From assembly GCF_016756595.1 (NCBI RefSeq), contig NZ_AP023259.1:62001-126000 (forward strand): DNA of 64,000 nucleotides, in the 5' to 3' direction. The translations under genes and the position numbers were made by a program. Within the stretch, counting starts at the first letter, position 1; each line of letters opens with the position of its first letter. The notes beneath the pieces were generated by a model. It searched no databases. It saw only the letters and a program-made list of their open reading frames with translations, and was not told the DNA's origin. Below, piece after piece: positions 22,542-61,704 of the stretch. This DNA is from Mesorhizobium sp. L-2-11 (GTDB lineage Bacteria; Pseudomonadota; Alphaproteobacteria; Rhizobiales; Rhizobiaceae).

Positions 22542-23712
22542 CTAGAGCAGAACTTCAGGGAACCGTTCTTCGGAAAGCTTTGAAATGAGTTCGGCGCCGT
22601 CCGCCGTCACCACGGCGACCTCCTCCAACTGGAATACTCCGCCGTCCAGTTCGTATTTCGGCTCGACGTGGATGATCATCCCCTCCTGAATCACCTCCTT
22701 CGAGGTGGCCGCAATCGAGGGTGGCTCCGTCAGGTTGCGTCCAGACCCATGGCCGATCCGGGATGCGGTTGCACTCGGCAGCCCTAACCCAGTCTGCTTG
22801 GCAAACGCTTCGAACACGGCATAGACATCGGCGCCGGTCATACTTGGCTTCATTGCAGACAAGGTCCCAATCGTCATGTTTCGGACCTGCGTGTAGATCC
22901 TTTGCTCTTCGTTGGTGGCGCGCCCTGCTTTGGCAATCCGGTTGACGTCGGAAATCGAACCAAACATGCGGCAACCGATATCGACCCAGATGAAATTATC
23001 CTTTGCCAGCGCCCGACCGGTTGGCGGGAGACTATAGGCGAAATCTTTGCGTCCGAAACGCACTGGCAGCCATGGAACAGATTCAGCGCCACGCTCGATC
23101 AGGTCCATCGTCAATGCCTTAGCAAACTGCTTTTCCGTCATTCCCAGCGTCACGTTCTTCAGGCAATGGTGGAACGCGTCATGCGCAATTTCGAGCGTAA
23201 GCCGCTTCTGGGCAATTTCCACCGGTGTCTTGATCATTCGGATTGGCCAAATGAAATCCGCACCTTCTAGAAGCTGTGCTGTATTAAACTGGTCCTTTAG
23301 CTTTTCTACTAGACTGAGAGAACCGATGCCGAAACTCTCGAATCCGTAATCCAGCGCAATTCTGCGAAGGTCGGTCTGCCCGAGAACCTCGATCACTTTC
23401 TCAACCGCACCCTCAACGAAGCCGGAATACTGCCGGTGCACCAGACCTCCAGGCAGTTCGGGCGTTTGAGAAAATGTCTTCGCTTCGGCAGCGGCTGCCA
23501 CGACCATCACTGCGTCGCTGTCTTTCCAAACGATCAGAAAATAAGGCCGGGCTTTGGACGCCCAGAACAGAGACTTGTAGCCGCTGAAATATTCAAAGTT
23601 GTCTCGGTCTGAGATCACGAACGCATCAACAGATTGTTCTGCCATGCACTTGCGAAGTGTGTCGATGCGTTCCTGGTACTCATCCGCGCGCACGAGAAGC
23701 CTATCGTACATG
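22542..23712 (-). CDS. M24-family (creatinase/Xaa-Pro dipeptidase-like) hydrolase 1
   Basis: 390-residue pita-bread metalloenzyme. Start is ATG 23712 with AAGGTG six bases upstream; the longer open frame is not supported. The five M24 metal ligands are present: D in WVDIGC, D in SISDVNRIA, H in RIGHGSG, E in HVEPKYEL and E in FQLEEVAVV. M24 members cleave N-terminal or cyclic amide bonds (Xaa-Pro peptidases, creatinase, ectoine hydrolase); the substrate here is unknown. No signal peptide, so cytoplasmic. Its close paralogue is at 50049-51212 (shared blocks DRENFEYFSG-like, PWLPVRFG, RIGHGSG). A 15-bp palindrome 35 bases upstream is shared with the transporter region at 44.2 kb. Confidence 0.85.
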
Positions 23713-23746
23713 TTATCACCTTGACTGAAACAACAAACCGAATTGT

Positions 23747-23761
23747 TATACCGGGTATAAT
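23747..23761. promoter_or_regulatory. Palindromic operator TTATACCGGGTATAA
   Basis: Perfect 15-bp palindrome with a central G, 35 bases before the ATG of the M24 gene. Its core TATACCGGGTATA recurs exactly at 44218-44230 in front of the ABC permease genes. Probable binding site of one of the two GntR-type regulators in the window (inference). The rest of 23762-24223 shows no gene. Confidence 0.6.
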
Positions 23762-24223: not shown

Positions 24224-25318
24224 TCACGGATCATACCCGGCGGGGCGGGGCGCCGGATCGCTCCCGGCGACATCTCGGTATCTTCGTCGACCCCATGTGA
24301 ATCGACACCATCCCTCCGATACCTCTTCTGGCGAAGAAATATCTCTTGGCCCTCGCCAATCCCGAGCAAGATCCTCATTCCAGGTGTTCAACCATCGGGG
24401 ATCAAACATTGTCTCCACATAACGGACGCCGTGGTCTGGGAGAATAGTCAGGACGTATCGCGAAGGATCCTGAGCTGCACGCCACTCTGCCACAGCAAGA
24501 GCGGCACCGCTTGACGGCCCGACAAGCATTCCAGTTTGCCGATGGAAATCGTGGACCTTTTGAACCATTTTCGGAACTGGCACCCAATGAACTTCGTCGC
24601 AGAGTTCGAAATTCACGTTGCCCATGGGTATTCCTGCTCCCATCGCGAGAATTTGTTCAAACGTTCCCCTGCACATCTTGCTGATCCGCGCGGCCTGGGC
24701 ACCAAAAATCACACTTCTATTGTGGTCGACCGCGATTACTTCTAAATCCGGGTTCTCGCGTTGCAAGATGGATGCAATTCCAAAGAGCGATCCGCCGCTA
24801 CCGACCGTGCCAACCACAGAATGGATTTTTGGCTGTGTTAGGAGGGCTCGCTTCGCAATCGGTCCATAAGAGAGAGAATTCAACGGGTTCGTGTATTGTT
24901 GCGGCCAAAAACTATCAGGCATTGATGAGCGCAATGTGGACAACACCTCCAGACGCGCTTGCTGAATCCCACCTTCGCAATTTTTGCTGGTGTGGACAGT
25001 ATGCAAGGCTGCTCCCAAATTCTCCAGTCTCCAGCGAACGATTTGCGACGTCGGACCGGTAACAAGCGTAAGGCGCAAGTTATATAAAGAACACAGGATA
25101 GATAGAGCTAAGGCGAATGTGCCGGAACTGCTTTCAACAACATGTCCACCGGCGCTTAAATGTCCGTTTGCCAGTGCAGTATCGAGAATGTGCTTCGCAG
25201 GTGTAAATTTCATTAGATCGAATTTCGCGGCAAGGAGATTGTGCGAGACTTGTATGAATTGCGGCACGGAGAGTGCCTCGACGACGTTCGCACCAAACGG
25301 TTTTTTGGGTATATCCAT
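24224..25318 (-). CDS. Fold-type II PLP enzyme (cysteine synthase superfamily), short divergent form
   Basis: 364-residue protein of the cysteine synthase/SbnA-like superfamily. Seen: KFDLMKFTPAKHIL near the N-terminus in the place of the usual PLP-lysine block, ESSSGTFALALS as the substrate loop, GTVGSGGSLFGIAS as the phosphate-binding glycine loop, and a VGPSSGAALAVAEW C-terminal block. The usual SxKDR is replaced, and either LMK or AKH could hold the Schiff-base lysine. It is closely related to the PLP domain at 29002-30654. Family members make or break beta-substituted amino acids. It precedes the M24 gene on the same strand by about 510 bases. Substrate unknown. Confidence 0.78.
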   Translation of the reverse strand: MDIPKKPFGANVVEALSVPQFIQVSHNLLAAKFDLMKFTPAKHILDTALANGHLSAGGHVVESSSGTFALALSILCSLYNLRLTLVTGPTSQIVRWRLENLGAALHTVHTSKNCEGGIQQARLEVLSTLRSSMPDSFWPQQYTNPLNSLSYGPIAKRALLTQPKIHSVVGTVGSGGSLFGIASILQRENPDLEVIAVDHNRSVIFGAQAARISKMCRGTFEQILAMGAGIPMGNVNFELCDEVHWVPVPKMVQKVHDFHRQTGMLVGPSSGAALAVAEWRAAQDPSRYVLTILPDHGVRYVETMFDPRWLNTWNEDLARDWRGPRDISSPEEVSEGWCRFTWGRRRYRDVAGSDPAPRPAGYDP

Positions 25319-27875: not shown

Positions 27876-27891
27876 TGTCACGTTTGCGACA
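27876..27891. promoter_or_regulatory. Candidate NifA upstream activating sequence TGT-N10-ACA
   Basis: The 16-mer TGTCACGTTTGCGACA fits the extended NifA consensus TGT-N4-T-N5-ACA. It ends 83 bases before the TTGGCACG element, a normal spacing for NifA sites, and lies upstream of the kinase gene. A lone TGT-N10-ACA can occur by chance, so the support comes from its position. Confidence 0.5.
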
Positions 27892-27974: not shown

Positions 27975-27991
27975 TTGGCACGATTTTTGAG
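27975..27991 (+). promoter_or_regulatory. Candidate -24/-12 (sigma-54) promoter, -12 imperfect
   Basis: TTGGCACGATTTTTGAG matches YTGGCACGRNNNTTGCW through the TTG, but has GA where the -12 GC is expected. It lies 91 bases before the first ATG of the kinase gene. The mismatch at -12 would be expected to weaken or abolish activity, so experimental proof would be required. Confidence 0.45.
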
Positions 27992-28081: not shown

Positions 28082-28978
28082 ATGGCGAGGTTTACCATGC
28101 GCGCAACAGAAGGATGCGGTGAAGCTATCGGTCATCATGGCGAACTCGTTCAAGGCATTTTTGAGGACCAATATGCTCGTCTGCACCGTGGCCTGATATC
28201 GCTGCCTTGCCGCCACCTCAAGTCGAAAGCCAAGTTCAAGACGAACGGCGAAGAGAGGTTGTCCGTTACCCCACGGCATTGCGAAAAGGCAAAACGCGCC
28301 GTGGAGCTCGCGCTCAAGACATTCGCCCGGATCACGATTGGCGGACATCTGACAATAGAAAGCAACATCCCCATTGGGCGCGGCATGGGCTCATCTACCG
28401 CTGATGTGCTCGCCAGCATCTTGGCCGTTCTCAATTACCTGGACCTCCAATCAACACCTCATCGCGTAATGGAAATTGCGGTAAGTGCGGAGACGGCATG
28501 CGATTCGACGCTGTTTTCGCAGCAAGCGGTGCTCTTCGCACATCGCGAAGGATTTGTGATAGAGTCGTTCAGAAAGCCGCTTCCGGCGATCGACTTCATC
28601 AGCATAGACACAACTCCCAGCCAAACTGTTGACACCCTTTTATTCAAGCCGGCTCAGTATAATCCGTTTGAGATCGGAGTCTTTCGGCCGCTCCGGAGTG
28701 TTATGCGGAGAGCGATCAACGAGTCCGATCTTCGTCTGCTTGGCCGAGTTGCTACCGCAAGCGCTCTAATAAACGAGAGATTCCTCCCAAAACCCCGCCT
28801 GTCCGATATCGAAGCGATTTGCACTCGCCATCGCGGTCTAGGCGTACAGGTTGCTCACAGCGGGACAGTTGTCGGCATAATGTTCGACCCAGCGAACGAA
28901 AGAAGCCCCGAAAGCATGGATCTAGCGATGCGTGACCTGACAGAGTTAGGTTTAGAGACTTCGATCTTCCGGCACTGA
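28082..28978 (+). CDS. GHMP-family kinase, PduX-like (L-threonine kinase-type)
   Basis: About 293-298 residues; ATG 28097 has a GGCGAGG upstream and is the likelier start than ATG 28082. The N-terminal motif EAIGHHGELVQG matches the PduX/GHMP motif, and the ATP-binding motif 2 PIGRGMGSSTADVLA is intact. The C-terminal AHSGTVVGIMFD is the third GHMP motif. PduX phosphorylates L-threonine; relatives phosphorylate other small alcohols or hydroxy-amino acids. Here there are no cobalamin genes around it; instead it is followed 26 bases later by a PLP-acetyltransferase fusion, suggesting that the phosphate is a leaving group for beta-replacement. Substrate is inference. Confidence 0.82.
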   Translation: MARFTMRATEGCGEAIGHHGELVQGIFEDQYARLHRGLISLPCRHLKSKAKFKTNGEERLSVTPRHCEKAKRAVELALKTFARITIGGHLTIESNIPIGRGMGSSTADVLASILAVLNYLDLQSTPHRVMEIAVSAETACDSTLFSQQAVLFAHREGFVIESFRKPLPAIDFISIDTTPSQTVDTLLFKPAQYNPFEIGVFRPLRSVMRRAINESDLRLLGRVATASALINERFLPKPRLSDIEAICTRHRGLGVQVAHSGTVVGIMFDPANERSPESMDLAMRDLTELGLETSIFRH

Positions 28979-29001: not shown

Positions 29002-30654
29002 GTGATGAGCCGAGTTCTGATGCGCAACCTGGAGGATTTTGAGAATCCGAGAATTGTCGAACTGCGAGATGGCCTGTATGGCGCCAGCTTTTTTCTCATG
29101 AAGCTTCTACCTGCCCGGTTCATTCTGGAACGGGCTGTGGAGCAAGGATTGCTGAAAACAGGTGCCAACATCTGCGACTCGTCTTCAGGGAATTTTGGGC
29201 TTGCCTTGGCCATGCTTTGTGCACAGTACGGCTACAAACTTACACTGGTGAGCGACTCGGCGCTTGATCGGCACCTTCATACACGCCTCGCCCAGCTTAA
29301 TGTGCACTTGGACGTTGTGGACAAGCCAGCGCGCGGTGGTGGATTTCAGCAGGCGCGCTTGAACAGGCTGAGCGTGTATCTTAAAGAGATACCCGGCAGC
29401 TATTGGCCCTCCCATCATTCAAATCCGGACAATCCGCTCGCCTACGCGAAATTAGCGGAGTTGCTCATCGAGAGAGTTGGAAAGATCGACTGCCTGGTTG
29501 GCCCCGTCGGGTCAGGAGGCTCCATGTGCGGTACGTCCAAGTACCTACGAGTGCCGTTCCCGGGATTGCATACCATTGGCGTTGATTCGCCCAAGTCAGG
29601 TCTGTTTGGGCAACCTGGTAGCAAGCGACACCTCAGCGGGCTGGAAGGTAGCATCGTTCCCTCCAATGTCGATCACAGACACTTCGACGAGGTGCATTGG
29701 CTGACGCCAGCAGAAGCATTTCACGTGACTCGCCAGTTACACCGGGACCATGGGCTTTTTATGGGCCCTACCAGTGGTGCTGCATATGGAGTTGCGAACT
29801 GGTGGTCACAGAAAAATCCTGGCAAGAAAGTCGTCGCCATCTTTCCTGATGAGGGACATCGTTACGTCGAGACCGTTTATAACGAGGACCGGCTCGCGTC
29901 TGTTTCTGGATGGCTTCAATCGATGCGCGAAGACCCAGCGGCTGTCGCTGCGCCCACGGAAAAACTGACGGGCTGGTCCTATTTCGCCTGGGGCAGGCGA
30001 ACTCGCGATGAAGTGCTTTGCAGCCCGATGGACCATGCGCGCGGACGTTCGTTCCTCCGGTCATCTTCCGGAACCCGCTTGCCTTCGCAGTCGATAAAGC
30101 AAAATCCTCTGGAACCGATTGGGGGCGCGCACGGCAGGGCGATCACGCCTACTTCCGAAGCGTGCTATGCGACCCTGAGAGCTTTGTCTCGCTTTGACGA
30201 CGCCGCAGTCGTCCATTTGAAGCTTGATCCCGAGCAGGAACAGTTTGTGGACCCGTTGCACGTGGTGTTCTCGGAGCTTCGAAATAGCACTTGTTCCGAA
30301 TTTGAGCATCCCTTCTCGATCGTGGTCAGCGAGGAAGCCGTTGGGTTTTTTGTCCTGCGTGAAAAAAAGGCGGTGCCGGAATGGGCACCACCAGGCGCGA
30401 TCACGTTGCACAGTCTTCGCGTGGGGCCCGCGTATCAATGCAGTGGATATGGCAAGGCAGCCATGAGACTTGCCGCAGAATGGATCCTAACTACCCGACC
30501 AGCGGCCGTCAGCCTCATGCTTGCAGTAAACGTCCGCAATATAATGGCTAGAAAGGTGTATCTAAAATCAGGCTTTCGCGATACAGGCGCCACTTACTGC
30601 GGATCAGTCGGAACTCAGAATATCTTTGAGTATATACTTGGCCATGAATGTTAA
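29002..30654 (+). CDS. PLP-dependent synthase fused to GNAT acetyltransferase
   Basis: 550-residue two-domain protein; GTG 29002 or ATG 29005 is the start, with GGGAG upstream. Residues about 1-345 form a fold-type II PLP domain related to the protein at 24224-25318 (FFLMKLLPARFILERA, CDSSSGNFGLALAM, GPVGSGGSMCGTSK, MGPTSGAAYGVANW). Residues about 385-550 form a GNAT domain with a LRVGPAYQCSGYGKAAMRLA acetyl-CoA loop and ARKVYLKSGFRDTGATY. In the canonical lysine block the second basic residue is Arg (PARF), leaving LMK as the likely PLP lysine. Probably operonic with the kinase. A make-then-acylate enzyme is inferred; the substrate is unknown. Confidence 0.82.
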   Translation: MMSRVLMRNLEDFENPRIVELRDGLYGASFFLMKLLPARFILERAVEQGLLKTGANICDSSSGNFGLALAMLCAQYGYKLTLVSDSALDRHLHTRLAQLNVHLDVVDKPARGGGFQQARLNRLSVYLKEIPGSYWPSHHSNPDNPLAYAKLAELLIERVGKIDCLVGPVGSGGSMCGTSKYLRVPFPGLHTIGVDSPKSGLFGQPGSKRHLSGLEGSIVPSNVDHRHFDEVHWLTPAEAFHVTRQLHRDHGLFMGPTSGAAYGVANWWSQKNPGKKVVAIFPDEGHRYVETVYNEDRLASVSGWLQSMREDPAAVAAPTEKLTGWSYFAWGRRTRDEVLCSPMDHARGRSFLRSSSGTRLPSQSIKQNPLEPIGGAHGRAITPTSEACYATLRALSRFDDAAVVHLKLDPEQEQFVDPLHVVFSELRNSTCSEFEHPFSIVVSEEAVGFFVLREKKAVPEWAPPGAITLHSLRVGPAYQCSGYGKAAMRLAAEWILTTRPAAVSLMLAVNVRNIMARKVYLKSGFRDTGATYCGSVGTQNIFEYILGHEC

Positions 30655-31036: not shown

Positions 31037-31774
31037 ATGACTGGACCAATTACGGTTAGTTTGCACGAAAAGGTACGACAAGAGATTATGCGGCGAGTGA
31101 TGGAAAACAAATACAAAGTAGAGCAGCCTCTGCCACCCATCGCCGCATTGGCAGAGGAGTTCGGCGTAAGCGTAATAACTATCAAGCGTGCGCTGCGAGA
31201 CCTTCAGCCTACAGGAATCCTTCGTACCGTCCCTGGACTTGGAATCTTCGTACGAGAGAGACGCAGGTTCATTCGTGACCTAGATTTCTGCGTCATATCG
31301 AGTGGAGTTTTTCAGCGATCTAGGCATAGACCGCCGATTCAAATAACATCGGTGACAAGGGAGATAATCCGCGATCCCGCTTTCAAGGAGTTTGATGCAC
31401 CAACTGGAACAATGCTTTGTATACGAAAGCATATATTAGCCGAGGAGAAGCCAATAATATTCGACACGTCCTACTTGCCGCTTTCTTTAAACGACAAAGT
31501 CGTTGACGAGTTTGGAGATAAGCTTGTAAGCGATGCACTGCGCGATCAAGGAACACGCTTTCGGAATACAAGGCTACTTGTTGATGCCGCACCAGCCTCA
31601 GAGGCGGCACAACAGGCATTCGGGATTCCTAATGGTTATCCAACACTCCGACGCCTCTACAAGTTAACCACGGTAGACCCTTCCTTCTCGGTCTTTGGAA
31701 TTGCCGAATCGCCATTTGATCGGCTGGCATACTCGGTAGAATTGGGAAACCGCGGGTCTAGAGAGCGGCCGTGA
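31037..31774 (+). CDS. GntR-family regulator with UTRA-type ligand domain (1)
   Basis: 245 residues from ATG 31037, preceded by GGGAG. The winged helix-turn-helix is clear (LPPIAALAEEFGVSVITIKR, ALRDLQPTGILRTVPGLGIF). The C-terminal UTRA-like domain includes FDTSYLPLSL and ends SPFDRLAYSVEL. It is a paralogue of the regulator at 46708-47478, which shares the spacing and several identical blocks (ITIKRA-RDLQ, FDTSY, DRVAY). Such regulators bind short palindromes and respond to small molecules; the shared TATACC/GGTATA sites are plausible targets. The GC content of the gene is lower than its neighbours. 31775-31925 holds no gene. Confidence 0.85.
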   Translation: MTGPITVSLHEKVRQEIMRRVMENKYKVEQPLPPIAALAEEFGVSVITIKRALRDLQPTGILRTVPGLGIFVRERRRFIRDLDFCVISSGVFQRSRHRPPIQITSVTREIIRDPAFKEFDAPTGTMLCIRKHILAEEKPIIFDTSYLPLSLNDKVVDEFGDKLVSDALRDQGTRFRNTRLLVDAAPASEAAQQAFGIPNGYPTLRRLYKLTTVDPSFSVFGIAESPFDRLAYSVELGNRGSRERP

Positions 31775-36154: not shown

Positions 36155-36170
36155 TGTCGGAAACCCGACA
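36155..36170. promoter_or_regulatory. Candidate NifA upstream activating sequence for asnB
   Basis: TGTCGGAAACCCGACA fits TGT-N10-ACA and, on the opposite strand, the extended TGT-N4-T-N5-ACA form. It is itself nearly palindromic. It lies 141 bases before the -24/-12 element at 36311, within the usual NifA range. Confidence 0.6.
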
Positions 36171-36310
36171 AGCTCCACAGAAAGTTGTTTTGGCTTCACT
36201 TGCGACAGCTACACCTTAGCATCTCAGGACAGCCCACAGTTGGCGAGAATGCTGGGTCGATTGTGCGGCGCCACGTCCCACCGGCTTTGATCTCCTTCAG
36301 CTCCGTTTGT

Positions 36311-36327
36311 TGGGCACGGTAATTGCA
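36311..36327 (+). promoter_or_regulatory. Sigma-54 promoter of asnB
   Basis: TGGGCACGGTAATTGCA contains the invariant GG-N10-GC (GG 36313-36314, GC 36325-36326) and matches YTGGCACGRNNNTTGCW except one base at -25. It lies about 140 bases before the asnB start codon. With the TGT-N10-ACA upstream, this predicts NifA-dependent expression. Confidence 0.65.
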
Positions 36328-41981: not shown

Positions 41982-42014
41982 GGTCCCGTCTAAAGCTTAT
42001 AAAGGGGAATGCAT

Positions 42015-44126: not shown

Positions 44127-44149
44127 CTTGGTATACCCAGAATACCAAG
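44127..44149. promoter_or_regulatory. Operator-like inverted repeat before the M20 gene
   Basis: CTTGGTAT and ATACCAAG are perfect inverted arms separated by seven bases (CTTGGTAT-N7-ATACCAAG), with GGTATACC in the left part. It lies 44 bases before the chosen M20 start. Belongs to the same motif family as the sites at 23747, 44218 and 49982. Confidence 0.55.
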
Positions 44150-44205
44150 ACCGCCCTCCTCCGGCAACCCCTTCCTAATCCGCAAGAAAAATGTCAGCCA
44201 TGGAA

Positions 44206-44232
44206 TTGACCTATCGGTATACCGGGTATAAT
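44206..44232 (+). promoter_or_regulatory. Promoter plus palindromic operator ahead of the permease operon
   Basis: TTGACC (44206-44211) and TATAAT (44227-44232) are 15 bases apart. The palindrome TATACCGGGTATA (44218-44230) covers the spacer and -10 element. The core is identical to that at 23748-23760. Binding here would block polymerase, so repression is the simplest model. The leader to 44430 has no other gene. Confidence 0.55.
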
Positions 44233-44429
44233 AATTTAAAAAAAATGGGAGCTGTAGCTTGTCGATTCTCAGATTGCGTGCCAAGCGAGTGCGGCAGCGC
44301 TCGTTGAGCTTATGCCGCTCCCGCAGATGCGACACGGACGCCAGATTTCATTCGGAGAGAAACTCCAATGAATGTGCGCGGGGGATATTGGTGTAACGTG
44401 ACCGGTCGCACTTAAACGGGCAACTTGCC

Positions 44430-46525: not shown

Positions 46526-46656
46526 GGGGCAAATCGACTTCTACAATCTGCGGGCCAGCCGGCAGTCCGGCGCTTCGGGAAATGATGCCGTCGGAAACCG
46601 CGATGGTTGGGTGGATTATGGTCGACGCGTCTTCCCATGAGACGGCGGCGACTGTA

Positions 46657-46670
46657 GGTAGGTATACTGG
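46657..46670. promoter_or_regulatory. Possible operator upstream of the second GntR gene
   Basis: AGGTAGGTATACTGG-like sequence with a GGTATAC half-site, about 40 bases before the TTG start of the regulator. It fits autoregulation. Weaker than the other sites of the family. Confidence 0.35.
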
Positions 46671-46707
46671 CTGTTGCAACGGCCGAAGTCGGAAGGGAGC
46701 GCGTAAC

Positions 46708-49890: not shown

Positions 49891-49960
49891 GTACCACTCC
49901 TTCAACTCAGATCCCCCGCTACGCCGCAACCACCGACATCGATGTCTTAGAGTCACTGAG

Positions 49961-50048: not shown

Positions 50049-51212
50049 TTGACAATTCAAGTCAGCAAATTTGTCGGGAGCCGCCTGGACGATCTTTTTG
50101 CGAGAATGAGGGAAGCGTCCCTTGACGCGCTGGTGCTAACCGATCGCGAGAATTTTGAGTACTTTAGCGGTTTTCGGACCTTGTTCTGGGCATCGAAATC
50201 GCGGCCCTTCTACGCAATTGCCTGTTCACGCGAACGTCTTTTGCATGTCCTCGTAAGCGCCGTGGAAAGGCGAACTGCGGAAGCGCATCAAGGTTTTCCC
50301 CAGCAAATCCAGTTTCATTATTACGATGGCTTGGTGCCAGAAAGTGTGTCGGCCTTGTCAAAGGTCTTGAATGGCGGCGTCAACCGGAACGCCGCCATTG
50401 CAATTGATTATGGAATGGACATGTTCGGCCGGGGAGTTCATGGGCTTCACAAAATTCTCGGAAGCGAAAGGGGCTCAGCAACGGTCGACGCTGCCGACAT
50501 CATTTGGGATGTTAGAATGGTCAAGGACGAAGAGGAAATCGCTCATAAGCGCCAGGCTCTGAAGGTTGCGACTGATTCGTTTTTTGCTGCACTCCGGCAC
50601 CTGAGAATTGGAGATACGGAAGAGCAGTTCGCTGCCATTCTGCGCAGCGAATTGATCCAGCGCGGGGCAAGTGCGATTCCCTGGCTACCAGTTCGGTTCG
50701 GTTTGAAGGACATGGCCTACAGTATGCCCCCGACGCAACGCAGGCTTGAGCATGACGATTACATTTGGGTCGATATCGGCTGCGTGGTGAATGGTAGTAT
50801 TTCTGACATCAACCGAATTGCAAAAGCCGGCCATGTTTCAGACCGTGAACAGTCGATGTATGGGACCGTTCGGAAGCTGACGCTGGAGACGGCTGGGTCG
50901 ATCAAAGCAGGTGAACAGTGCAGTGACATCTATAGGAGATTCCGGCAACAGGTGGACCGGGAAAACATCCCATTCTATAGTGCGGCATCCCGCATTGGAC
51001 ATGGATCCGGGGTCGATCTGACCGAGCCACCCTCTGTCGCCGAGGCGTCATCAGAAATCCTCCGGGATGGTATGATTATTCACATCGAGCCGAAGATCGA
51101 AGTCGATTACGGGGTATTCCAGCTTGAGGAAGTCGTATTGGTGAAGGGTTCAGAAGCTGAATTTCTAAGCGAGATCGCACCTGAAAAGCTTCCCGAGATT
51201 CCATTGGCATAA
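50049..51212 (+). CDS. M24-family (creatinase/Xaa-Pro dipeptidase-like) hydrolase 2
   Basis: 387 residues from TTG 50049 with AGGGG upstream. All five metal ligands are present (VDIGC, SISDINRIA, RIGHGSG, HIEPKIEV, FQLEEVVLV). Clearly paralogous to 22542-23712 (shared DRENFEYFSGFRTLFWASK-type N-terminus and PWLPVRFGLKD). Cytoplasmic hydrolase of an amide or cyclic amidine, substrate unknown. Divergent from the M20-PLP operon. Confidence 0.86.
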   Translation: MTIQVSKFVGSRLDDLFARMREASLDALVLTDRENFEYFSGFRTLFWASKSRPFYAIACSRERLLHVLVSAVERRTAEAHQGFPQQIQFHYYDGLVPESVSALSKVLNGGVNRNAAIAIDYGMDMFGRGVHGLHKILGSERGSATVDAADIIWDVRMVKDEEEIAHKRQALKVATDSFFAALRHLRIGDTEEQFAAILRSELIQRGASAIPWLPVRFGLKDMAYSMPPTQRRLEHDDYIWVDIGCVVNGSISDINRIAKAGHVSDREQSMYGTVRKLTLETAGSIKAGEQCSDIYRRFRQQVDRENIPFYSAASRIGHGSGVDLTEPPSVAEASSEILRDGMIIHIEPKIEVDYGVFQLEEVVLVKGSEAEFLSEIAPEKLPEIPLA

Positions 51213-52527: not shown

Positions 52528-53007
52528 TTAACCGGGGTCGCCTATAGGCAGTGCCTGGGAGTGCTTCACCTGCCCCAGTGCAAAGCTTGACTCGATTGAC
52601 GCCACCCCCTCCAGCCGCGTCAGCTTTTGCTTGAGAAATGCCTCGTAGGCTTCGAGATCTTTGACAACGATGCGGAGCAGGTAGTCTTGTTGGCCGGTCA
52701 TGAGATAGCACTCGACAATTTCGGGCCAGCGCTGCACAGCGGTAGCAAACCGGTCCAGTTCCTCTTCTCTTTGTCTTTCCAGTTTTATCGACGCAAAGAC
52801 ACTGATCGGTAGGCCAATCTTTAGCTGGTCTATGACCGCCACGTAGCCCTTGATAACGCCGGAGGCTTCGAGATTGCGAACGCGACGTGCGCACGGCGAC
52901 GGCGACAGTCCGACGATCTCGCTTAGCTCTTCGGTTGTGGCATGAGCGTCCGACTGGAGAACGCCGAGGATTTTTCGATCGATTGCGTCAATTTCAATTT
53001 TTGGCAC
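52528..53007 (-). CDS. Lrp/AsnC-family transcriptional regulator
   Basis: 159 residues. The N-terminal helix-turn-helix is IDAIDRKILGVLQSDAHATT with LSEIVGLSPSPCARRVRNLE, and the RAM effector domain follows (YLMTGQQDYLLRIVVKDLEA). Divergent from the E1-PCC-MCM operon with a 135-bp gap, so it is the likely local regulator. In the Pseudomonas mde system an Lrp-type regulator likewise sits next to an E1-type 2-oxobutyrate dehydrogenase gene (known analogy). An amino acid is the probable ligand. Confidence 0.9.
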   Translation of the reverse strand: MPKIEIDAIDRKILGVLQSDAHATTEELSEIVGLSPSPCARRVRNLEASGVIKGYVAVIDQLKIGLPISVFASIKLERQREEELDRFATAVQRWPEIVECYLMTGQQDYLLRIVVKDLEAYEAFLKQKLTRLEGVASIESSFALGQVKHSQALPIGDPG

Positions 53008-53142: not shown

Positions 53143-55539
53143 ATGGACGAGTTACGACTAGAGACACTGACGGAACTCGAGAAGAAGGTCCTGTGGCTCG
53201 CGACGTGGACGATCCACAACGCGAACCATCTTCGCGATAGCGATGACGGGCTGAAGGTTGGCGGTCACCAGGCTTCGTCGGCTTCGTTGGCAACCATCAT
53301 GACCGCACTATATTTCGCGGCATTGCGACCGGAGGACAGGGTCGCCGTTAAACCCCACGCGAGTCCGATCTTCCACGCGATTCAATATCTCTTCGGCAAT
53401 CAGACGCGTGCGAAACTCGAGGCTTTCCGTGCCTACAAGGGTGCACAGTCCTACCCCTCCCGGACCAAAGACATCGATGACGTCGACTTCTCGACCGGTT
53501 CCGTGGGTCTAGGTGTCGCGCAAACGCTATTTTCGTCACTCGTGCAGGATTACCTCCACGCGAAGGGCTTGGCCTCAAATCTTCCCGACGGAAAGATGGT
53601 GGCACTCATCGGCGACGCCGAGATGGACGAGGGCAACATCTTCGAGGCACTTCTGGAGGGCTGGAAGCACGGGCTTCGCAATACGTGGTGGATTGTAGAT
53701 TACAACCGCCAGAGCCTCGACGCTGTTGTCCGGGAGGGTTTGTGGGAACGATTTGAATCCATTTTCCGGAGTTTTGGGTGGGACGTGGTCATTCTCAAAT
53801 ATGGACGCTTACTCGAAGCCGCTTTTGCGGAACCAGGTGGCGAGGCACTTCGGAAATGGGTCGATGCATGTCCCAATCAACTTTATTCGGCTTTGACATT
53901 CCAGGGTGGAGCATCCTGGAGAAAACGACTGCTGGATGATCTTGGCGACCAAAGTCCAGTCTCCGAGTTGATCGAACGCCGTTCGGACGAAGAGCTGGCT
54001 CGCCTCATGGCCAATCTTGGAGGGCATGATCTGCCCGCGCTGCTCGACGCCTTCGAAAATGCGCGCTCACATGATCGCCCAGTGTGTTTCATCGCATACA
54101 CGATCAAGGGTTTCGGCTTGCCGTTGGCCGGGCACAAAGACAATCATGCCGGACTGATGACGCCGACGCAGGTGGAAACACTGCGCCACCGATTGCACGT
54201 CCGTCCTGGCCACGAATGGGATCCCTTCGAGGGTCTTACCCTACCGGCAAAACGTTTGGCCGATTTCGTAAAAGCGGCGCCTTTCAATGCCAAAGGGAGG
54301 CGCCGGTATGACGCGCCGACAGTGGCAGTGCCGCCTACCTTGACTGTCGCGGCCCAGCCTTCCATGTCGACACAGCAGGGTTTTGGGCTGCTGATGCACG
54401 AGATTGCCAAGCAGGACAGTGCCCTTGCAAAGCGGATCGTTACGACATCGCCCGATGTCACGGTGTCGACCAATCTCGGTGCGTGGGTCAACCGTCGTGG
54501 CCTGTTCGCAAAGGAAGCGATGGTCGATCTGTTCAAGAAGGAGCGCATCCCTTCCACCTTCAACTGGGAGTTCTCGCCCAACGGCCAGCACATGGAACTC
54601 GGCATTGCCGAGATGAACCTGTTCATCATGCTGTCGGCGCTGGGGATTTCCCATTCGATTTTCGGAGAACGGCTCTTGCCCGTAGGCACGCTCTATGATC
54701 CGTTTATCGAACGTGGCCTCGACGCCCTCAATTATGCCTGCTACCAGGACGCTCGCTTTATCATCGCCGCTACGCCTTCGGGGGTCACGCTGGCGCCGGA
54801 GGGCGGCGCTCACCAGTCGATCGCTACGCCCCTAATTGGTATGGCGCAGGATGGGCTTGCCAGCTTCGAGCCTGCTTTCGTCGATGAACTCGCGACGATC
54901 TTGCGGTTTTCCTTCGACTATATGCAGCGGTCGGGTAACTCCGAGCCCGATCAAGTGACGTGGCTGCGGGATGCGGTCGGCGGAGCGGTCTACCTAAGAC
55001 TCTCAACGCGATCAGTCGAGCAGCCCAAACGCGAGATTGATAGCAGTTTTGCGGAAAACATCGTCAACGGCGGGTACTGGATGCGGAGACCAGGTCCCAA
55101 CGCGCAGGTTGTCGTCGCATACACAGGTGCAGTGGCACCTGAAGCCATCGAAGCGGTCGGGCTTATGGCAGAGGATCGGCGAGACGTGGGATTGCTGGCA
55201 ATTACCTCGGCCGACCGCCTGAACGCGGGATGGACCGCAGCCCAGAAGGCGCGAGAGCACGGCCTCGTCCGCGCGCGCAGTCACATCGAGCGTCTACTTG
55301 ACGCGGTATCTTCGCACTGTTCACTGATAACGGTGCTTGACGGGCATCCGGCGACATTGGCTTGGCTTGGCGCGGTCTATGGACATCGAACACGGTCGCT
55401 TGGAGTGGAGCATTTCGGACAGACCGGCACCATCGCCGATCTCTATCGCCATTACGGAATCGATGCCCAAGGAATCGTGAGAGCAGCGCAAGCAATCTCG
55501 CCCGGTCGGCCTATCAGGTACCTTGAGGAAGTGGGCTGA
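53143..55539 (+). CDS. E1-type 2-oxoacid dehydrogenase (MdeB/AceE-like, thiamine-dependent)
   Basis: 798 residues from ATG 53143 with GAGGGGCG upstream. Thiamine-diphosphate motif [19 protein letters not shown] with the distal N in VDYNRQS. The transketolase-like second half has [20 protein letters not shown]. Shorter than AceE (about 887) and similar in size to the 2-oxobutyrate dehydrogenase MdeB of Pseudomonas. Converts a 2-oxo acid to an acyl group on a lipoyl E2; no E2 or E3 is encoded here, so those must be shared with the chromosomal complexes. Linked to propionyl-CoA genes, which supports 2-oxobutyrate as substrate (inference). Confidence 0.83.
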
Positions 55540-57071
55540 TGCGTGCTGTCCTTGAGCAACTCGAAACACGGCGCGCCGAAGCACGTCTTGGTGGCGGCCA
55601 AAAGCGTATCGACGCGCAGCATGCAAAGGGCAAGCTGACGGCACGCGAACGTCTCGAAGTGCTCCTCGATGAGGGGTCCTTCGAGGAATACGATATGTAC
55701 GTCACCCACCGCGCCGTCGACTTCGGCATGGCCGGCCAAAAGATTGCCGGTGACGGCGTCGTCACCGGCTGGGGCACGGTCAACGGCCGACTGGTTTACG
55801 TCTTTTCGCAGGATTTCACAGTGCTCGGCGGCTCGCTTTCGGAGACGCATGCCCAGAAGATCTGCAAGATCATGGACATGGCGGTCCGCAACGGCGCACC
55901 GGTGATCGGACTTAACGACAGCGGCGGCGCACGCATTCAGGAAGGAGTGGCCTCACTCGCCGGCTACGCCGACGTCTTCAAGCGCAATGTCGATGCCTCA
56001 GGGGTCATACCACAGATATCCGTCATCATGGGGCCTTGTGCCGGCGGCGCCGTCTATTCGCCGGCCATGACCGATTTCATCTTCATGGTGCGGGATTCCT
56101 CCTACATGTTCGTCACCGGGCCGGATGTGGTGAAGACCGTTACCAATGAGATTGTAACAGCAGAAGAGCTTGGCGGCGCGCGCACCCATACGTCGAAATC
56201 GTCTGTCGCCGACGGCGCCTTCGACAATGATGTGGAGACGCTGGAGCAAATCCGCGCTCTGTTTGATTTCCTTCCGCTCAACAATCGGGAGAAGGCGCCG
56301 GTACGCCGCTTCAATGATGATCCCTCGCGAATCGAGATGCGGCTCGACACGCTGATCCCTGACAGCGCGGTCAAACCCTACGATATGAAGGAGCTGGTTC
56401 TGGCGATTGCTGATGAGGGCGATTTCTTCGAGATCCAGGCTGCTTTCGCACGTAACATCCTCACCGGATTCGTGCGTATCGAAGGTCAGACAGTGGGCGT
56501 GGTCGCCAATCAGCCGATGGTGCTTGCGGGCTGTCTCGACATCGACTCCTCGCGCAAGGCCGCGCGGTTCGTCCGTTTCTGTGATGCGTTCTCCATTCCG
56601 CTCCTAACACTGGTAGACGTTCCAGGTTTCCTGCCTGGCACATCCCAGGAATTTGGCGGGGTGATAAAACACGGCGCCAAGCTTCTGTTCGCCTATTCGC
56701 AGGCGACAGTACCGATGGTGACGCTGATCACGCGCAAGGCCTATGGGGGTGCCTATGACGTCATGGCATCCAAGCACATTGGCGCCGATGTGAATTACGC
56801 CTGGCCGACGGCCGAGATTGCGGTGATGGGCGCCAAGGGCGCGACTGAGATCCTTTATCGTTCCGAACTTGGCAACACGGATAAGATCGCCCAACGCACC
56901 AAGGATTACGAGGAGCGTTTCGCCAATCCGTTCGTCGCTGCCGAACGTGGCTTCATCGACGAAGTCATCATGCCGCATTCCTCTCGCCGACGCATTGCCC
57001 GCGCCTTTGCCGCTCTGCGCGGCAAGAGCGTCGATGCACGCTGGAAGAAACACGACACGATCCCGCTTTGA
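55539..57071 (+). CDS. pccB: Propionyl-CoA carboxylase beta subunit
   Basis: 510 residues; ATG overlaps the E1 stop by one base, indicating translational coupling. The carboxyltransferase fold is clear: [60 protein letters not shown] and [20 protein letters not shown]. It transfers the carboxyl group from biotin to propionyl-CoA, giving methylmalonyl-CoA, together with PccA. Confidence 0.93.
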
Positions 57072-57078: not shown

Positions 57079-57549
57079 ATGAAGATCGCCAAGCCCTGCC
57101 ATGTCAGTTTGCGAAGGGCGACCGGCGAGGACGAGCCCTTCATCCTCGAACTAGAACGCTCAGCGTTGCGAAGGTTGTCAGAAGCCATTTTTGGCTATTG
57201 GACTCCACGACCTGGAATGGGAGAAACATTTCCTGATGGTAGCTGGATCATCCAACGTGAAAATGAAGACGTCGGATGCTTTGCCCTCTCCGAAAGGCAG
57301 AATGTTCTGGAGATAGAACAATTGTATCTCCTGCCCGACGCACGGAACTGCGGCATCGGAAATTATGTCCTGACGAGAATCCTGACCTTGGCGGCGGTAA
57401 AGCACCACAGCGTCCAGATCGTTTTGCTTGCCGAAAACGACGCGCAGCGCTTCCTCGAACGCGCAGGCTTTGCGGTCACTGCTGTCTCTTCGACTCGAAT
57501 ATTTATGGAATGCTTGTGCTCACGAGAGCCCCACACCTGGACAAACTAA
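57079..57549 (+). CDS. GNAT-family N-acetyltransferase inside the pcc operon
   Basis: 156 residues from ATG 57079, seven bases after pccB. GNAT features are LEIEQLYLLPDARNCGIGNY (motif A, acetyl-CoA loop RNCGIG) and NDAQRFLERAGF (motif B). The end overlaps the pccA start by one base. It may modify an operon product or a metabolite; acyl-CoA donors such as acetyl- or propionyl-CoA are conceivable. The substrate is unknown, and this gene is not a usual member of pcc operons. Confidence 0.82.
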   Translation: MKIAKPCHVSLRRATGEDEPFILELERSALRRLSEAIFGYWTPRPGMGETFPDGSWIIQRENEDVGCFALSERQNVLEIEQLYLLPDARNCGIGNYVLTRILTLAAVKHHSVQIVLLAENDAQRFLERAGFAVTAVSSTRIFMECLCSREPHTWTN

Positions 57550-59552
57550 TGTTTCGAAAAATCCTCATCGCCAATCGTGGCGAGATCGCTTGCCGCGTCA
57601 TCAAGACGGCCAGAAAACTTGGCATCGCCACGATCGCAGTCTATTCAGATGCCGATCGCGACGCGCTGCATGTGAAGATGGCCGACGAAGCTGTTCATAT
57701 TGGTGCAGCACCTTCCAGCCAGTCCTACATCGCAATAGGCAAGATCCTCGATGCCGTGAAAGCCACGGGCGCAGACGCGGTTCATCCCGGCTACGGCTTC
57801 CTGTCGGAAAATTTCAATTTCGCCGAGGCGCTTAGGGCGGCAGGCGTCGCCTTCATCGGCCCACCGCCGGTCGCCATCGAGGCGATGGGGGACAAGATCA
57901 CCTCAAAGAAGATCGCTGCATCCGCGGGTGTCTCGACCGTGCCCGGCCACATGGACCTGATCGCCGATGCCGACGAGGCGGTGAAGATCGCCGGCCATAT
58001 CGGCTATCCCGTGATGATCAAGGCCTCGGCCGGCGGTGGCGGCAAGGGCATGCGCATCGCCTGGAACGACGACGAGGCACGAAAGGGCTTCCAGTCTTCC
58101 AAGAACGAGGCGAAATCCTCTTTTGGCGACGACCGCATATTCATCGAGAAGTTCATCACCCAGCCTCGCCATATCGAGATTCAACTGCTCGGCGACCAGC
58201 ACGGCAATCTCGTCTATCTAGGCGAACGCGAATGCTCGATTCAGCGCCGCAACCAGAAGGTCATTGAGGAAGCCCCGTCACCGTTCCTCGACGCAGCAAC
58301 TCGCAAGGCCATGGGCGAACAGGCGGTAGCACTGGCCAAAGCCGTCGGCTATTTCTCCGCCGGGACGGTGGAATTCATCGTCGATGGCGACAGGAAATTC
58401 TACTTCCTCGAGATGAACACAAGGCTGCAGGTCGAGCATCCGGTGACTGAGCTGATCACCGGCCTCGATCTAGTCGAAGAGATGATCCGGGTTGCGGCGG
58501 GCGAAAAGCTGCGGATCACGCAAGACGCCGTGAAACTCGACGGCTGGGCGATAGAAAGCCGGCTCTATGCGGAAGATCCGTACCGCAGTTTCCTGCCGTC
58601 CATCGGACGGTTGACCCGGTATCGTCCGCCGGTCGAGGGGAAGCACAAAGACGGCACCGTCATACGGAACGACACCGGCGTCTTCGAAGGTGGCGAGATC
58701 TCAATGTACTACGATCCGATGATCGCCAAACTGTGCACGTGGGCGCCCGACCGCATTGGCGCCATCGATGCGATGAGCAAGGCGCTCGACGATTTTGAGG
58801 TCGAAGGTATCGGCCACAATCTGCCGTTTCTGTCTGCCGTCACGGATCACCCACGCTTTCGCGAGGGCCGGCTGACGACGGCTTTCATTGCCGAGGAATA
58901 CCCGGACGGCTTTTCCGGAGTCGAGCCACCCATGGGCGATGCCAGGAAACTCGCGGCGGTCGCCGTCTTTATCAATCTGGAAGCCCAGAAGCGCAACGTG
59001 CAGATTTCCGGCGCGTTGGACAATCATCGCCGCGCCGTCGGCCGTAACTGGGTGGTGACTGTCGCAGGCGAAAGCTTTTCAACCTCGGTCGGGGAACTGG
59101 GCAGCAAGACCGTCGTCGAATTCAGCGAGGGTGCTCCTATCTCGATCTCCAGCGATTGGCTTCCGGGGAGATCCCACGCACAATTCACCGTCGACGATGA
59201 GACGCTCGGCGTGAAAACGGCAACCGCCGCAACAGGTATCCGTCTGCGCTGGCGCGGTGCGGATGTGGTGGCCTACGTACGCACGCCTCGCATTGCTGAA
59301 CTGGCGTTGCTGATGCCCGAAAAGCTTCCGCCGGATACGTCGAAACTGCTTCTTTGCCCGATGCCCGGGGTGATCACCTCCGTCACGGTTAAGGCAGGTG
59401 ACAAGGTGGAGGTCGGGCAGGTGCTTGCGACCGTCGAAGCGATGAAGATGGAAAACGTGCTGCGAGCCGAGCGCAAGGCAACCATCCGCCGTATCGCTGC
59501 GGAAGCTGGCGTCAGCCTCGCTGTCGATGAAGTCATCATGGAATTCGAATGA
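57549..59552 (+). CDS. pccA: Propionyl-CoA carboxylase alpha subunit (biotin carboxylase + biotin carrier)
   Basis: 667 residues starting [20 protein letters not shown]. Biotin carboxylase ATP-grasp domain: [39 protein letters not shown] and [14 protein letters not shown]. The C-terminal carrier domain has EAMKMEN with the biotinyl lysine. A frame extending upstream of 57549 is not real. Partner of PccB. Confidence 0.94.
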
Positions 59553-59562
59553 GGGCGAAGCG

Positions 59563-61704
59563 ATGGCCGACCACGTGACCTATGAGGACTGGCAGAAATT
59601 AGCCGAGCGCGAATTGAAGGCATCGCCCGACAGTTTAGCTTGGCAGACCCCGGAAGGCATCTCCGTCAAGCCGCTCTACACGGCGGCTGATCTTGCTGGC
59701 ATTAACGGCCTCGACTCGTTGCCCGGTGTTAAGCCCTTTTTGCGGGGCCCACGCGCCACCATGTATGCCGGTCGTCCCTGGACCATCCGGCAATATGCAG
59801 GTTTCTCGACGGCCGAGGAGAGCAACGCCTTCTACCGCAAGGCGCTCGCCGCCGGCCAGCAAGGAATCTCGGTCGCTTTCGACCTGGCCACCCATCGCGG
59901 CTACGACAGCGACCACTCGCGCGTCGAGGGCGATGTGGGCAAGGCCGGCGTTGCGATCGACAGCGTCGAGGACATGAAGATCCTGTTTGATGGTATCCCG
60001 CTGGGCGAGATGTCGGTCTCCATGACGATGAACGGCGCAGTGATTCCGATTCTCGCCTCCTTCATCGTAGCCGGCGAAGAGCAAGGTGTTTCCCGGGCAA
60101 AGCTTTCAGGAACGATCCAGAACGACATTCTAAAGGAGTTCATGGTCCGCAACACCTACATCTATCCGCCCGAACCATCGATGCGGATCATCGCTGACAT
60201 CATCGAATACACGGCGAAGGAGATGCCTAAATTCAATTCGATTTCCATCTCCGGCTATCACATGCAAGAGGCGGGTGCGACACTGGTGCACGAACTGGCC
60301 TTCACACTGGCCGATGGCCGCGAATATGTTCGAGCGGCAATTGCCAAAGGCCTCAATGTCGATGATTTCGCGGGCCGACTTTCGTTCTTCTTCGCCATCG
60401 GAATGAATTTCTTCATGGAGGCCTCCAAGCTGCGCGCCGCACGTGTGCTGTGGTCACGCATCATGGAGGAATTTGAGCCGAAGAAGCAGTCCTCACTGAT
60501 GCTACGCACCCATTGCCAGACCTCGGGTGTATCGCTTCAGGAGCAGGATCCCTACAATAACATCGTGCGCACGGCATATGAAGCGCTGGCCGCGGCGCTG
60601 GGGGGCACGCAGTCGCTGCACACCAATTCCTTTGATGAGGCGATCGCGCTGCCGACGGCGTTCTCCGCGCGTATCGCCCGCAACACTCAATTGATCCTCC
60701 AACACGAGACCGGCGTGACCAAGGTTGTCGATCCGCTTGCCGGGTCCTACTATGTTGAAAGTCTCACCAATGAGCTTGCCGAGAAAGCCTGGACATTGAT
60801 CGAGGAAGTCGAGGCGATGGGCGGCATGACCAAGGCGGTCGCCACCGGTATGCCCAAACGCATGATCGAGGAGGCTGCAACCCGCCGGCAGGCTGCCGTC
60901 GACAAGGGCGAAGAAGTCATAGTCGGCGTCAACAAATATCGACTCGAGTCCGAAGAGCAGATCGACACCCGCTACATCGACAACGCCGCCGTGCGGCAAT
61001 CACAAATCGCTCGCATCGAACGAACAAAACGCCAGCGCGATCCCAAGCGAGTGGGAGAGACACTTGCCGCCTTGCAGAACGTCTCGCGTTCCAATGGGGG
61101 CAACATCCTAGAAGCAGCTGTGGAAGCTGCCCGGGCACGTGCTACCGTGGGTGAAATTTCGGATGCGCTTCGCCAGGTTTTTGGCGACCATTCGGCAAAA
61201 CCGGAAGTGGTCTCGAAAGTCTACGGTGCTGCCTACGGGCATGAGCCAGAGTTCCAGACGCTTGTTTCACGGCTCGATCACTTCGCTCGCAAGCTCGGAC
61301 AAAAACCGCGGATTATGGTGGCTAAGCTCGGGCAGGATGGTCATGACCGCGGGGCGAAAGTCATCGCGTCAGCTTTCGGCGACATCGGTTTCGACGTTCT
61401 TGCCGGGCCTTTGTTTCAGACGCCGCTCGAGGCCGCCGACATGGCGATCAACGCGCAAGTGTCTGTAGTTGGCGTGTCGGCACTCGCCGCCGGCCACAAG
61501 ACGCTACTCCCGCAACTAGTAGAGGAGTTGAGGCGAAAGGGCGCGGGAAACATTGTCGTCATCTGCGGAGGCGTGGTGCCTCGCCAGGATTATCAATTCT
61601 TGTTGGATCACGGCGTGTCAGGTGTTTTCGGCCCGGGCACGAACGTGCTCGACGCCGCCCGCGCCGTGTTGGACATCATGGAAGGCAAGAGGAGAAACGC
61701 CTAG
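59563..61704 (+). CDS. bhbA: Methylmalonyl-CoA mutase (coenzyme B12-dependent)
   Basis: 713 residues from ATG 59563 after GAGGGCGAAG; 10 bases after pccA. The catalytic half contains [20 protein letters not shown] and [20 protein letters not shown]; the C-terminal B12 domain has [20 protein letters not shown] (DxHxxG cobalt ligand) and the [11 protein letters not shown] loop. Single-chain mutase of the rhizobial bhbA type. Converts methylmalonyl-CoA to succinyl-CoA; the epimerase is not in the window. Confidence 0.93.

Follow-up and report, generated by a model that had tools for sequence, protein, structure and literature searches.

The 22.5-61.7 kb region of a 64,000-nt stretch of Mesorhizobium sp. 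L-2-11 DNA raises the question of whether genes for making a nitrogen-rich compound and genes for consuming it form one rhizopine-like system. The stretch, called the window here, covers positions 62001-126000 of contig C3 (NZ_AP023259.1, 247.5 kb) of a 7.4 Mb genome, and all coordinates below are window positions. An earlier note on this DNA had proposed a synthesis set, a catabolic set with a dedicated importer and a terminal carbon-burning operon. Pfam and NCBIfam matches confirmed the predicted gene types of both halves and of the terminal operon near the proposed places, in open reading frames (ORFs) that are open in the window. The synthesis half comprises a GHMP-family kinase and a pyridoxal-phosphate (PLP) enzyme resembling SbnA (PALP) joined to a GNAT acyltransferase domain, referred to below as the synthase; the catabolic half comprises M24 and M20 hydrolases, an importer resembling EhuBCDA and a threonine-synthase-like PLP enzyme (PALPc). 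In our judgement the balance tips slightly towards a single module that makes, exports, re-imports and burns one nitrogen-rich compound, rhizopine- or opine-like in its logic and encoded by genes unrelated to mos/moc.

The distribution of the two halves was determined in 146 Mesorhizobium genomes, with the synthase counted at E <= 1e-100 and M24 sought with the protein of genome G027 at E <= 1e-50. The results showed that the synthase is present in eight genomes, the window's own included, and M24 in 11, namely in all eight synthase genomes and in 3 of the 138 others, one of these three (G041) being a fragment (Fisher 4e-11; 5e-10 without the window's genome). The search threshold matters, because the window's own M24b as query at 1e-70 finds only 4/146. 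Among 144 Paraburkholderia genomes the synthase occurs in 10, and M24 in 6 of these 10 versus 0/134 (Fisher 2e-8). These tests assume independent genomes, an assumption that related genomes violate. NodC-positive genomes alone keep the association (Mesorhizobium, 7/7 versus 1/94; Paraburkholderia, 6/10 versus 0/16), and in Paraburkholderia NodC itself accompanies the fused synthase in 10/10 genomes versus 16/134 others. The system is rare, since in the wider family 2/394 genomes, G000 and G453, carry the synthase at E 1e-100. Catabolic genes are found without a synthase at that threshold in G102, and the 30 kb read around the M24 gene of P. phenoliruptrix pSYMBR3459 likewise yielded none. Co-occurrence across rhizobia was one of the checks on which the earlier note had staked its proposal, and the counts in both genera, together with the compact clusters of five genomes, favour it.

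Physical linkage was then compared. In five genomes of two genera (G027, G044, G060 and G134; G453 of the other genus) both halves and an MFS exporter lie within 13-16.5 kb, in the order kinase, PALP, MFS, GNAT and MmgE/PrpD, then convergent PALPc, EutE-like and EhuADCB genes, then GntR, M24 and an OmpR-like regulator; a second OmpR-like regulator lies upstream of the kinase in all compact clusters but that of G453. The G134 cluster sits on plasmid pMspAR07a. The kinase matches of G134 and G453 are each split between two frames, and both genomes were used for linkage only. On plasmids of Cupriavidus taiwanensis, Paraburkholderia phymatum, P. sabiae, INR15 and Neorhizobium galegae the synthase and M24 are 7-36 kb apart (C. 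taiwanensis NZ_LT984809, 7 kb; P. phymatum pBPHY02, 28.5 kb; P. sabiae pPs24235_1, 23.5 kb), with about 22 kb of other genes between the halves in INR15. In G047 and G098 the distance between M24 and synthase is 110 and 80 kb, yet M24 is grouped with GntR, EhuB and a partial gene for the transketolase-like enzyme (TK) of the terminal operon, which adjoins it. An ABC-three-component and AbiE-type block was also seen between the halves on the INR15 plasmid (L041 23106-36331).

There seem to be two lineages. In the fused lineage (window, M7A, beta-rhizobia) PALP and GNAT form one gene, as seen in the window, L007/G080, beta-rhizobia and strain 131-3-5; in Paraburkholderia it occurs only together with NodC, and part of its loci have NifA sites. 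In the split lineage PALP and GNAT are separate genes (G027, G044, G060, G134 and G453), and the clusters are mostly compact, have an OmpR-like regulator and are plasmid-borne where the replicon is known. The kinase adjoins the synthase in the loci read, with the exceptions of L008, in which an intact kinase lies about 4.6 kb off, and L043, in which the kinase is in pieces.

The claim of NifA-like control fared unevenly. A strict sigma54 scan of 20-64 kb returned seven -24/-12-like places, of which only that before an AsnB-like gene has an upstream activating sequence (UAS); this promoter (36155..36327, +) combines a UAS at 36155 with a -24/-12 element with one mismatch at 36311 (one observed versus a mean of 0.17 in six window shuffles). 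A classical NifA promoter was not found on the window kinase. Under a relaxed rule (UAS and -24/-12 within 1.2 kb upstream, at most two mismatches, the C of -12 free), 5 of 11 fused-type loci have sites before the kinase (window, L008, L012, L038 and L040), a count that is partly post hoc because the rule was written after the window/L007 alignment had been seen; the shuffle rate was 0.006 per locus, and 0/19 catabolic starts have such a site. The 11 loci are those with a usable kinase; 131-3-5 (kinase in pieces) and the Paraburkholderia genomes G182, G219 and G243 were left out. The three beta-rhizobial sites, with spacing of 96-98 bp, are probably one inherited site and not three events. About 6 kb before its kinase P. 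phymatum has a strong -24/-12 element that is not accompanied by a UAS, and S. meliloti RRI128 (pRRI128_5) has perfect NifA/sigma54 sites before a row of SerK-like, GNAT and SbnA-like genes and before ppdK (pyruvate phosphate dikinase).

Expression in nodules is available for P. phymatum, for which Table 1 of PMC8305402 lists log2 fold changes from bean-nodule RNA-seq of a nifA mutant versus the wild type. In that table the kinase Bphy_7478 stands at -8.24, the synthase Bphy_7479 at -6.85 and the GntR gene Bphy_7481 at -4.44, with nifH (Bphy_7753) at -7.40 for scale. In the catabolic region, 12 of the 13 genes Bphy_7493-7505 are down, from -2.18 to -6.59 (Bphy_7493, -5.33; 7494, -6.33; 7495, -5.83; 7496, -5.97; 7497, -4.58; 7498, -3.19; M24 Bphy_7500, -6.59; importer genes 7501, -6.13, 7502, -5.83, 7503, -5.14 and 7504, -2.32; GntR 7505, -2.18). 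In the interpretation of the authors of that table, 7504-7501 encode a lysine/arginine/ornithine transporter, the product of 7498 makes threonine and that of 7479 makes cysteine. The same paper reports a drop, in nodules of the nifA mutant, of an ion assigned to 2,4-diaminobutanoate and places an ion assigned to ectoine at -1.4 in rpoN-mutant nodules; because the assignment was by mass alone (flow-injection time-of-flight), 2,3-diaminobutanoate and an ectoine isomer fit these ions equally, and they lend the proposal slight support at most. An ectB gene, Bphy_7266 (-7.58), and a GNAT gene, Bphy_7268 (-8.06), are listed there as NifA-dependent as well. This Bphy_7266-7268 segment of pBPHY02 adjoins hydrogenase genes and perhaps serves a further nodule-made diaminobutyrate derivative; an ectB-annotated gene (L043:9273-10532) also lies near the synthase of Mesorhizobium 131-3-5. 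Six P. phymatum locus tags do not occur in the main text of PMC5979394, PMC5748707 or PMC9554594, no Bphy_74xx or Bphy_750x tag was found in the text available of PMC5789663, and the terms ectoine and cysteine synthase are absent from the passages available of the M. loti R7A NifA regulon paper.

The products of the synthesis half point to amino-acid chemistry. The kinase gene (28082..28978, +; Pfam PF00288/PF08544) encodes a protein whose structure model matches homoserine kinase and mevalonate kinases, a weak match because the mean predicted local distance difference test score (pLDDT) is only 62. The synthase (29002..30654, +; PF00291 and PF00583) has SbnA 5d87 as its best PDB match (E 8.9e-32), and a second SbnA-like enzyme, PALPb (24224..25318, -), is 35% identical to it by blastp and has an 84% ortholog in L007; with the SbnA model TIGR03945 they score 201.8 and 171.6 bits, respectively, both under the cut-off of 349.95. 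A GntR-UTRA regulator follows at 31037..31774 (+; Pfam). In S. meliloti RRI128 a SerK-like protein (free serine kinase), a GNAT (63%) and an SbnA-like PALP lie in a row about 5 kb from an M24 gene; the SerK-like protein, an amino-acid kinase of unrelated type, takes the position of the GHMP kinase and was counted for amino-acid chemistry on that ground. This RRI128 row (L062:19568-22316, 24184) was also seen beside M24, Ehu and EutE-like genes. The relatives' MmgE/PrpD protein has IDS-epimerase as best PDB match (4e-18), with cis-aconitate decarboxylase nearly equal (6e-17).

The AsnB-like glutamine-hydrolysing amidotransferase (36466..38298, +; TIGR01536, 467.7 bits, cut-off 267.1) was considered as a core part and rejected: none of the other clusters compared contains a match to it, nor is P. 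phymatum Bphy_7471 homologous to it, for which reason its membership is left uncertain. Gene and NifA-type promoter together span 36140-38298 (+), and the gene may be a separate NifA target. Related kinase and PALP genes were observed in two further settings. M. japonicum pMLb (L058:6762-12608) has Lrp, transketolase, kinase, SbnA-like PALP and threonine synthase genes in a row, and matches to this kinase and PALP also occur on many plasmids of Mesorhizobium, Aminobacter and Bosea. Azospirillum oryzae (L059:8582-14380) has a kinase, an SbnA-like PALP, an ATP-grasp amino-acid ligase, a DMT transporter and an argininosuccinate lyase, possibly a 2,3-diaminobutyrate dipeptide cluster.

In the catabolic half, M24b (50049..51212, +; model pLDDT 84.6) is 46% identical by blastp to a second M24-family hydrolase, M24a (22542..23711, -; PF00557/PF01321), which keeps the five metal-ligand positions; these positions are invariant in 8/8 M24 sequences. 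The closest solved folds to the M24b model are Xaa-Pro dipeptidases, with DoeA/EutD lower, and the DoeA model gives the window M24 proteins 66.8 and 46.5 bits, cut-off 575. The importer genes encode an EhuB-like periplasmic binding protein (42009..42893, +; TIGR02995, 198.4 bits, cut-off 190.9; best PDB match EhuB 2q88, E 4e-38), EhuC-like (44430..45089, +; TIGR03004, 178.9, cut-off 196.95) and EhuD-like (45079..45741, +; TIGR03003, 205.4, cut-off 205.2) permeases and an EhuA-like ATPase (45764..46525, +; TIGR03005, 274.7, cut-off 345.4), for which the GlnQ model scores higher (311.2); EhuB and EhuD are thus above the NCBIfam cut-offs and EhuC and EhuA below. A glutamate-carboxypeptidase-like M20 hydrolase, M20a (42938..44335, -), lies between the EhuB-like and EhuC-like genes on the opposite strand. 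A GntR-UTRA regulator (46582..47478, +) is proposed for this half. The putative lyase PALPc (47519..48670, -; PF00291; threonine synthase 2d1f in the PDB, E 3e-23) starts 2 bases past the stop of M20b, an M20D amidohydrolase and candidate deacylase (48673..49956, -; TIGR01891, 298.9 bits; DoeB2 model 244.1, cut-off 550; PDB match IAA-amino acid hydrolase 1xmb). Close relatives of the window PALPc are few (2/146 genus genomes at 1e-70). The relatives' EutE-like enzyme scores 267.6 bits (EutE cut-off 402.7); its first structural match is the uncharacterised 3cdx, followed by EutE/DoeB 6twm (E 3e-67).

The terminal operon consists of TK, an E1/transketolase-like 2-oxoacid dehydrogenase component (53143..55539, +), propionyl-CoA carboxylase (PCC) beta (55539..57071, +), PCC alpha (57549..59552, +; PCC_BT and biotin domains) and methylmalonyl-CoA mutase (MCM; 59563..61704, +), and an Lrp/AsnC regulator (52528..53007, -; Pfam) is divergent from it. 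PCC alpha, PCC beta and MCM of the propionyl-CoA to succinyl-CoA route are thus all present, MCM above its family cut-off (NF006944, 1228 bits versus 876). The suspicion that such an operon could burn the carbon found support elsewhere, as catabolic genes are linked to the operon, or to its first gene, in N. galegae, G047 and G098. N. galegae pNgVX has the row PALPc, EutE-like, M24, TK, EhuADCB, GntR, MmgE/PrpD-like, PCC beta, PCC alpha and MCM, with TK within the catabolic cluster, PCC and MCM directly beside it (PCC beta 85-89%, PCC alpha 71%, MCM 77-87% identity) and kinase-PALP-GNAT-GntR about 20 kb beyond; several of its genes are in broken frames, so that it counts as linkage only. TK also lies beside the regulator and kinase in INR15 (82%) and beside the kinase and PALP on pMLb (76%), and C. 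taiwanensis and P. phymatum have an mdeB-annotated E1 nearby instead, 27% identical to TK. A 2-oxoacid as the catabolic product is supported by this gene context, and PCC and MCM in two genera suggest that it may be 2-oxobutyrate.

On these grounds the following working is proposed. The GHMP kinase would phosphorylate a free hydroxy-amino acid, threonine being likelier here than serine, and the SbnA-like enzyme would swap the phosphate for an amine, giving a 2,3-diamino acid or an imino-diacid adduct, which the fused GNAT would acylate. In the relatives the MFS protein may export the acylated compound, and in nodulating lineages NifA would switch the synthesis half on. Cells with the catabolic half could import the compound through the EhuBCDA-like importer and hydrolyse its acyl or amide bonds with M24 and then M20 or, in relatives, the EutE-like enzyme; PALPc would split the diamino acid to a 2-oxoacid, and 2-oxobutyrate would be burnt through the E1-like enzyme, PCC and MCM to succinyl-CoA. 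A chain from threonine to 2-oxobutyrate is plausible, and the exact steps given here are rather doubtful. We put forward only tentatively, as a possibility short of even, that the genes represent a second rhizopine class on mobile DNA of alpha- and beta-rhizobia. Its product would be a 2,3-diaminobutyrate-type compound with an N-acyl group, formed in nodules from phosphothreonine under NifA control; a separate importer and a dedicated route from 2-oxobutyrate over propionyl-CoA to succinyl-CoA would serve it, and catabolism-only strains would be its consumers.

A number of observations weigh against this reading. Upstream of the window kinase lie a UAS (TGT-N10-ACA, 27876..27891, +; about 200 bp from the kinase, with an aligned UAS in the close relative L007, a Mesorhizobium M7A contig) and a good sigma54-like -24 box (27976..27991, +), and the -12 element reads TTGA, not TTGC. 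Six of the 11 fused-type loci, P. phymatum included, have no site within 1.2 kb, and none of eight split-type loci has a NifA site, an OmpR-like regulator preceding the kinase in seven of them. As for the shared island of the earlier note, both gene sets are indeed on C3, but this genome's nifH and nodC are on contig C1, and insertion sequence (IS) genes at 33.4-35.4 kb stand between the two sets. Neither in the window nor on the rest of C3 (E 1e-10) is there a counterpart of the relatives' MFS exporter or MmgE/PrpD, the window has M20 in place of the EutE-like enzyme, and its PALPc is just 32% identical to that of G027. Four of the 10 Paraburkholderia synthase genomes are without M24; the synthase shows no association with NodC among Mesorhizobium genomes (7/8 versus 94/138, p 0.44); and co-occurrence may stem in part from shared plasmid backbones, repABC lying near the cluster in AR07 and INR15. 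The split lineage, carried also by G060, which has neither nifH nor nodC, weakens a nodule-only view and suits a broader opine-like role among plasmid kin. The pMLb row has TK, kinase and PALP without hydrolases or importer, so that kinase and PALP may serve degradation on that plasmid. The catabolic genes, too, depend on NifA in nodules of P. phymatum, unlike a simple scheme in which bacteroids make and free cells eat; this dependence may be indirect, the nodules being Fix-. The EutE-like gene and mdeB are not in Table 1 of PMC8305402, and the NifA-dependent ectB-GNAT pair could explain the diaminobutanoate ion.

Comparison with known systems places these genes apart from each of them. The mos/moc rhizopine, L-3-O-methyl-scyllo-inosamine of S. 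meliloti L5-30 and R. leguminosarum, likewise has its synthesis and catabolism genes linked on DNA associated with symbiosis, synthesis that depends on NifA (as for the P. phymatum orthologs of the present genes), an importer and a regulator with a GntR head. That logic, invoked by the earlier note, is matched by the linked gene sets and in part by the NifA-dependent P. phymatum orthologs; membership of mos/moc is not, as no MocA-type dehydrogenase or other moc gene was found among the window ORFs scanned against Pfam. The present chemistry is of amino-acid type (kinase, SbnA-like PALP and GNAT; M24, M20/EutE-like and PALP) and not that of inosamine, the regulator is GntR-UTRA and not MocR (the MocR model matches only the GntR head of 46582-47478, 32.8 bits, cut-off 650), beta-rhizobia carry the genes too, and the catabolic half shares the NifA dependence in P. 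phymatum nodules. Ectoine/5-hydroxyectoine catabolism (ehuABCD, eutD/doeA, eutE/doeB, enuR, asnC/doeX) has in common an EhuBCDA-like importer, M24 plus deacylase and a nearby Lrp/AsnC gene. DoeA lacks metal, whereas the present M24 keeps five metal-ligand positions and is nearer to Xaa-Pro dipeptidases; a PLP enzyme and PCC-MCM stand here in place of a route to aspartate, and no EutABC or EnuR was seen. In SbnA/SbnB synthesis of 2,3-diaminopropionate for staphyloferrin B, the shared element is an SbnA-like enzyme with a neighbouring kinase for a free hydroxy-amino acid (here SerK-like in RRI128 and, as proposed, GHMP-type in the window); the present PALPs are under the SbnA cut-off, GNAT is fused and the operon is without an SbnB-like dehydrogenase. 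In Ti-plasmid opine systems, too, a plasmid encodes both the making and the breakdown of a nitrogenous compound along with a dedicated importer, but the opines are made by transformed plant cells with unrelated enzymes, the present compound being proposed as a product of the bacterium or bacteroid.

It was considered whether the halves are two unrelated neighbours, a NifA-associated secondary-metabolite operon and an ectoine-like or N-acyl-amino-acid scavenging system for plant or soil compounds. An importer that passes or nearly passes the ectoine-importer cut-offs, IS elements between the halves and the catabolic genes of G102 and pSYMBR3459 that stand apart from a synthase are consistent with it; co-occurrence and compact linkage, seen in Paraburkholderia as well as in two genera of a single family, the joint NifA dependence of both halves in P. 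phymatum (PMC8305402, Table 1) and the shortfall of the DoeA and DoeB2 scores, with no MocR-type EnuR, render it unlikely. True ectoine catabolism was itself rejected on the model cut-offs, the kept M24 metal ligands and the lack of any eutABC or enuR among the genes seen. Homoserine/threonine utilization, in which the kinase phosphorylates plant homoserine or threonine and PLP enzymes eliminate the phosphate to 2-oxobutyrate for TK-PCC-MCM with no export, would fit the grouping of Lrp, TK, kinase, PALP and threonine synthase on pMLb and the resemblance of the kinase model to homoserine kinase and of PALPc to threonine synthase. We regard it as distinctly improbable, as it leaves unexplained the fused GNAT, the MFS exporter, the hydrolases, the RRI128 SerK-GNAT-SbnA row and the presence of NifA-type promoters on the kinase operon only.

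That a toxin, antimetabolite or metallophore is the product of the synthesis genes, the others serving self-protection or recycling, has a chance that we rate a shade smaller again. SbnA is indeed an enzyme of the staphyloferrin B pathway, neighbours of MmgE/PrpD and ATP-grasp type are in keeping with natural products, and the A. oryzae kinase-PALP pair lies in a natural-product-like setting with no catabolic genes in the 27 kb read; on the other hand, no TonB receptor was found in the gene tables read, which are incomplete, and a dedicated PCC-MCM route exceeds the needs of detoxification. The compound eaten could also be N-acetyl-2,4-diaminobutyrate made by the NifA-dependent ectB (Bphy_7266) and GNAT (Bphy_7268) and not by kinase and PALP-GNAT. 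The strong NifA dependence of that pair, the tie that PMC8305402 draws between ectB and the fall of the diaminobutanoate ion, the ectB-annotated gene near the 131-3-5 synthase and the EutE-like deacylase of the relatives speak for this. It is nevertheless very improbable, in that the compact clusters carry kinase and PALP, with no ectB-like gene noted in the two read ORF by ORF (no genome-wide ectB search was made), M24 is not DoeA-like, and a lyase with PCC-MCM is ill-suited to 2,4-diaminobutyrate.

In the literature examined, rhizopines are inosamines from few strains; a search made mostly at record level found the present genes nowhere described as a rhizopine. If the single make-and-burn module is real, it would be a second, chemically unrelated rhizopine type in Mesorhizobium, Neorhizobium, Cupriavidus and Paraburkholderia, would supply a new importer-regulator pair for plant-microbe signalling, and would give a joint meaning to NifA-dependent P. 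phymatum genes now read as cysteine synthase, threonine synthase and lysine/arginine/ornithine transporter. P. phymatum STM815, for which a nifA mutant and nodule metabolomics exist, is a ready test strain.

Near-identity DNA searches in PLSDB gave one short match in one search and none in the other. Elsewhere in the window, type VI secretion genes of the DotU/OmpA and IcmF families lie at 66-4575 (+) and a group II intron RNA match at 9610-9680 (-). One frame at 40142-41140 (+) joins a thiamine-phosphate synthase domain to the start of a phosphomethylpyrimidine kinase and looks like thi gene fragments. An 873-aa ORF at 14544-17165 (-) has a C-terminal Ulp1/C48 protease domain (Pfam E 5.5e-9) and presumably resembles NopD-type effectors of rhizobial type III secretion.

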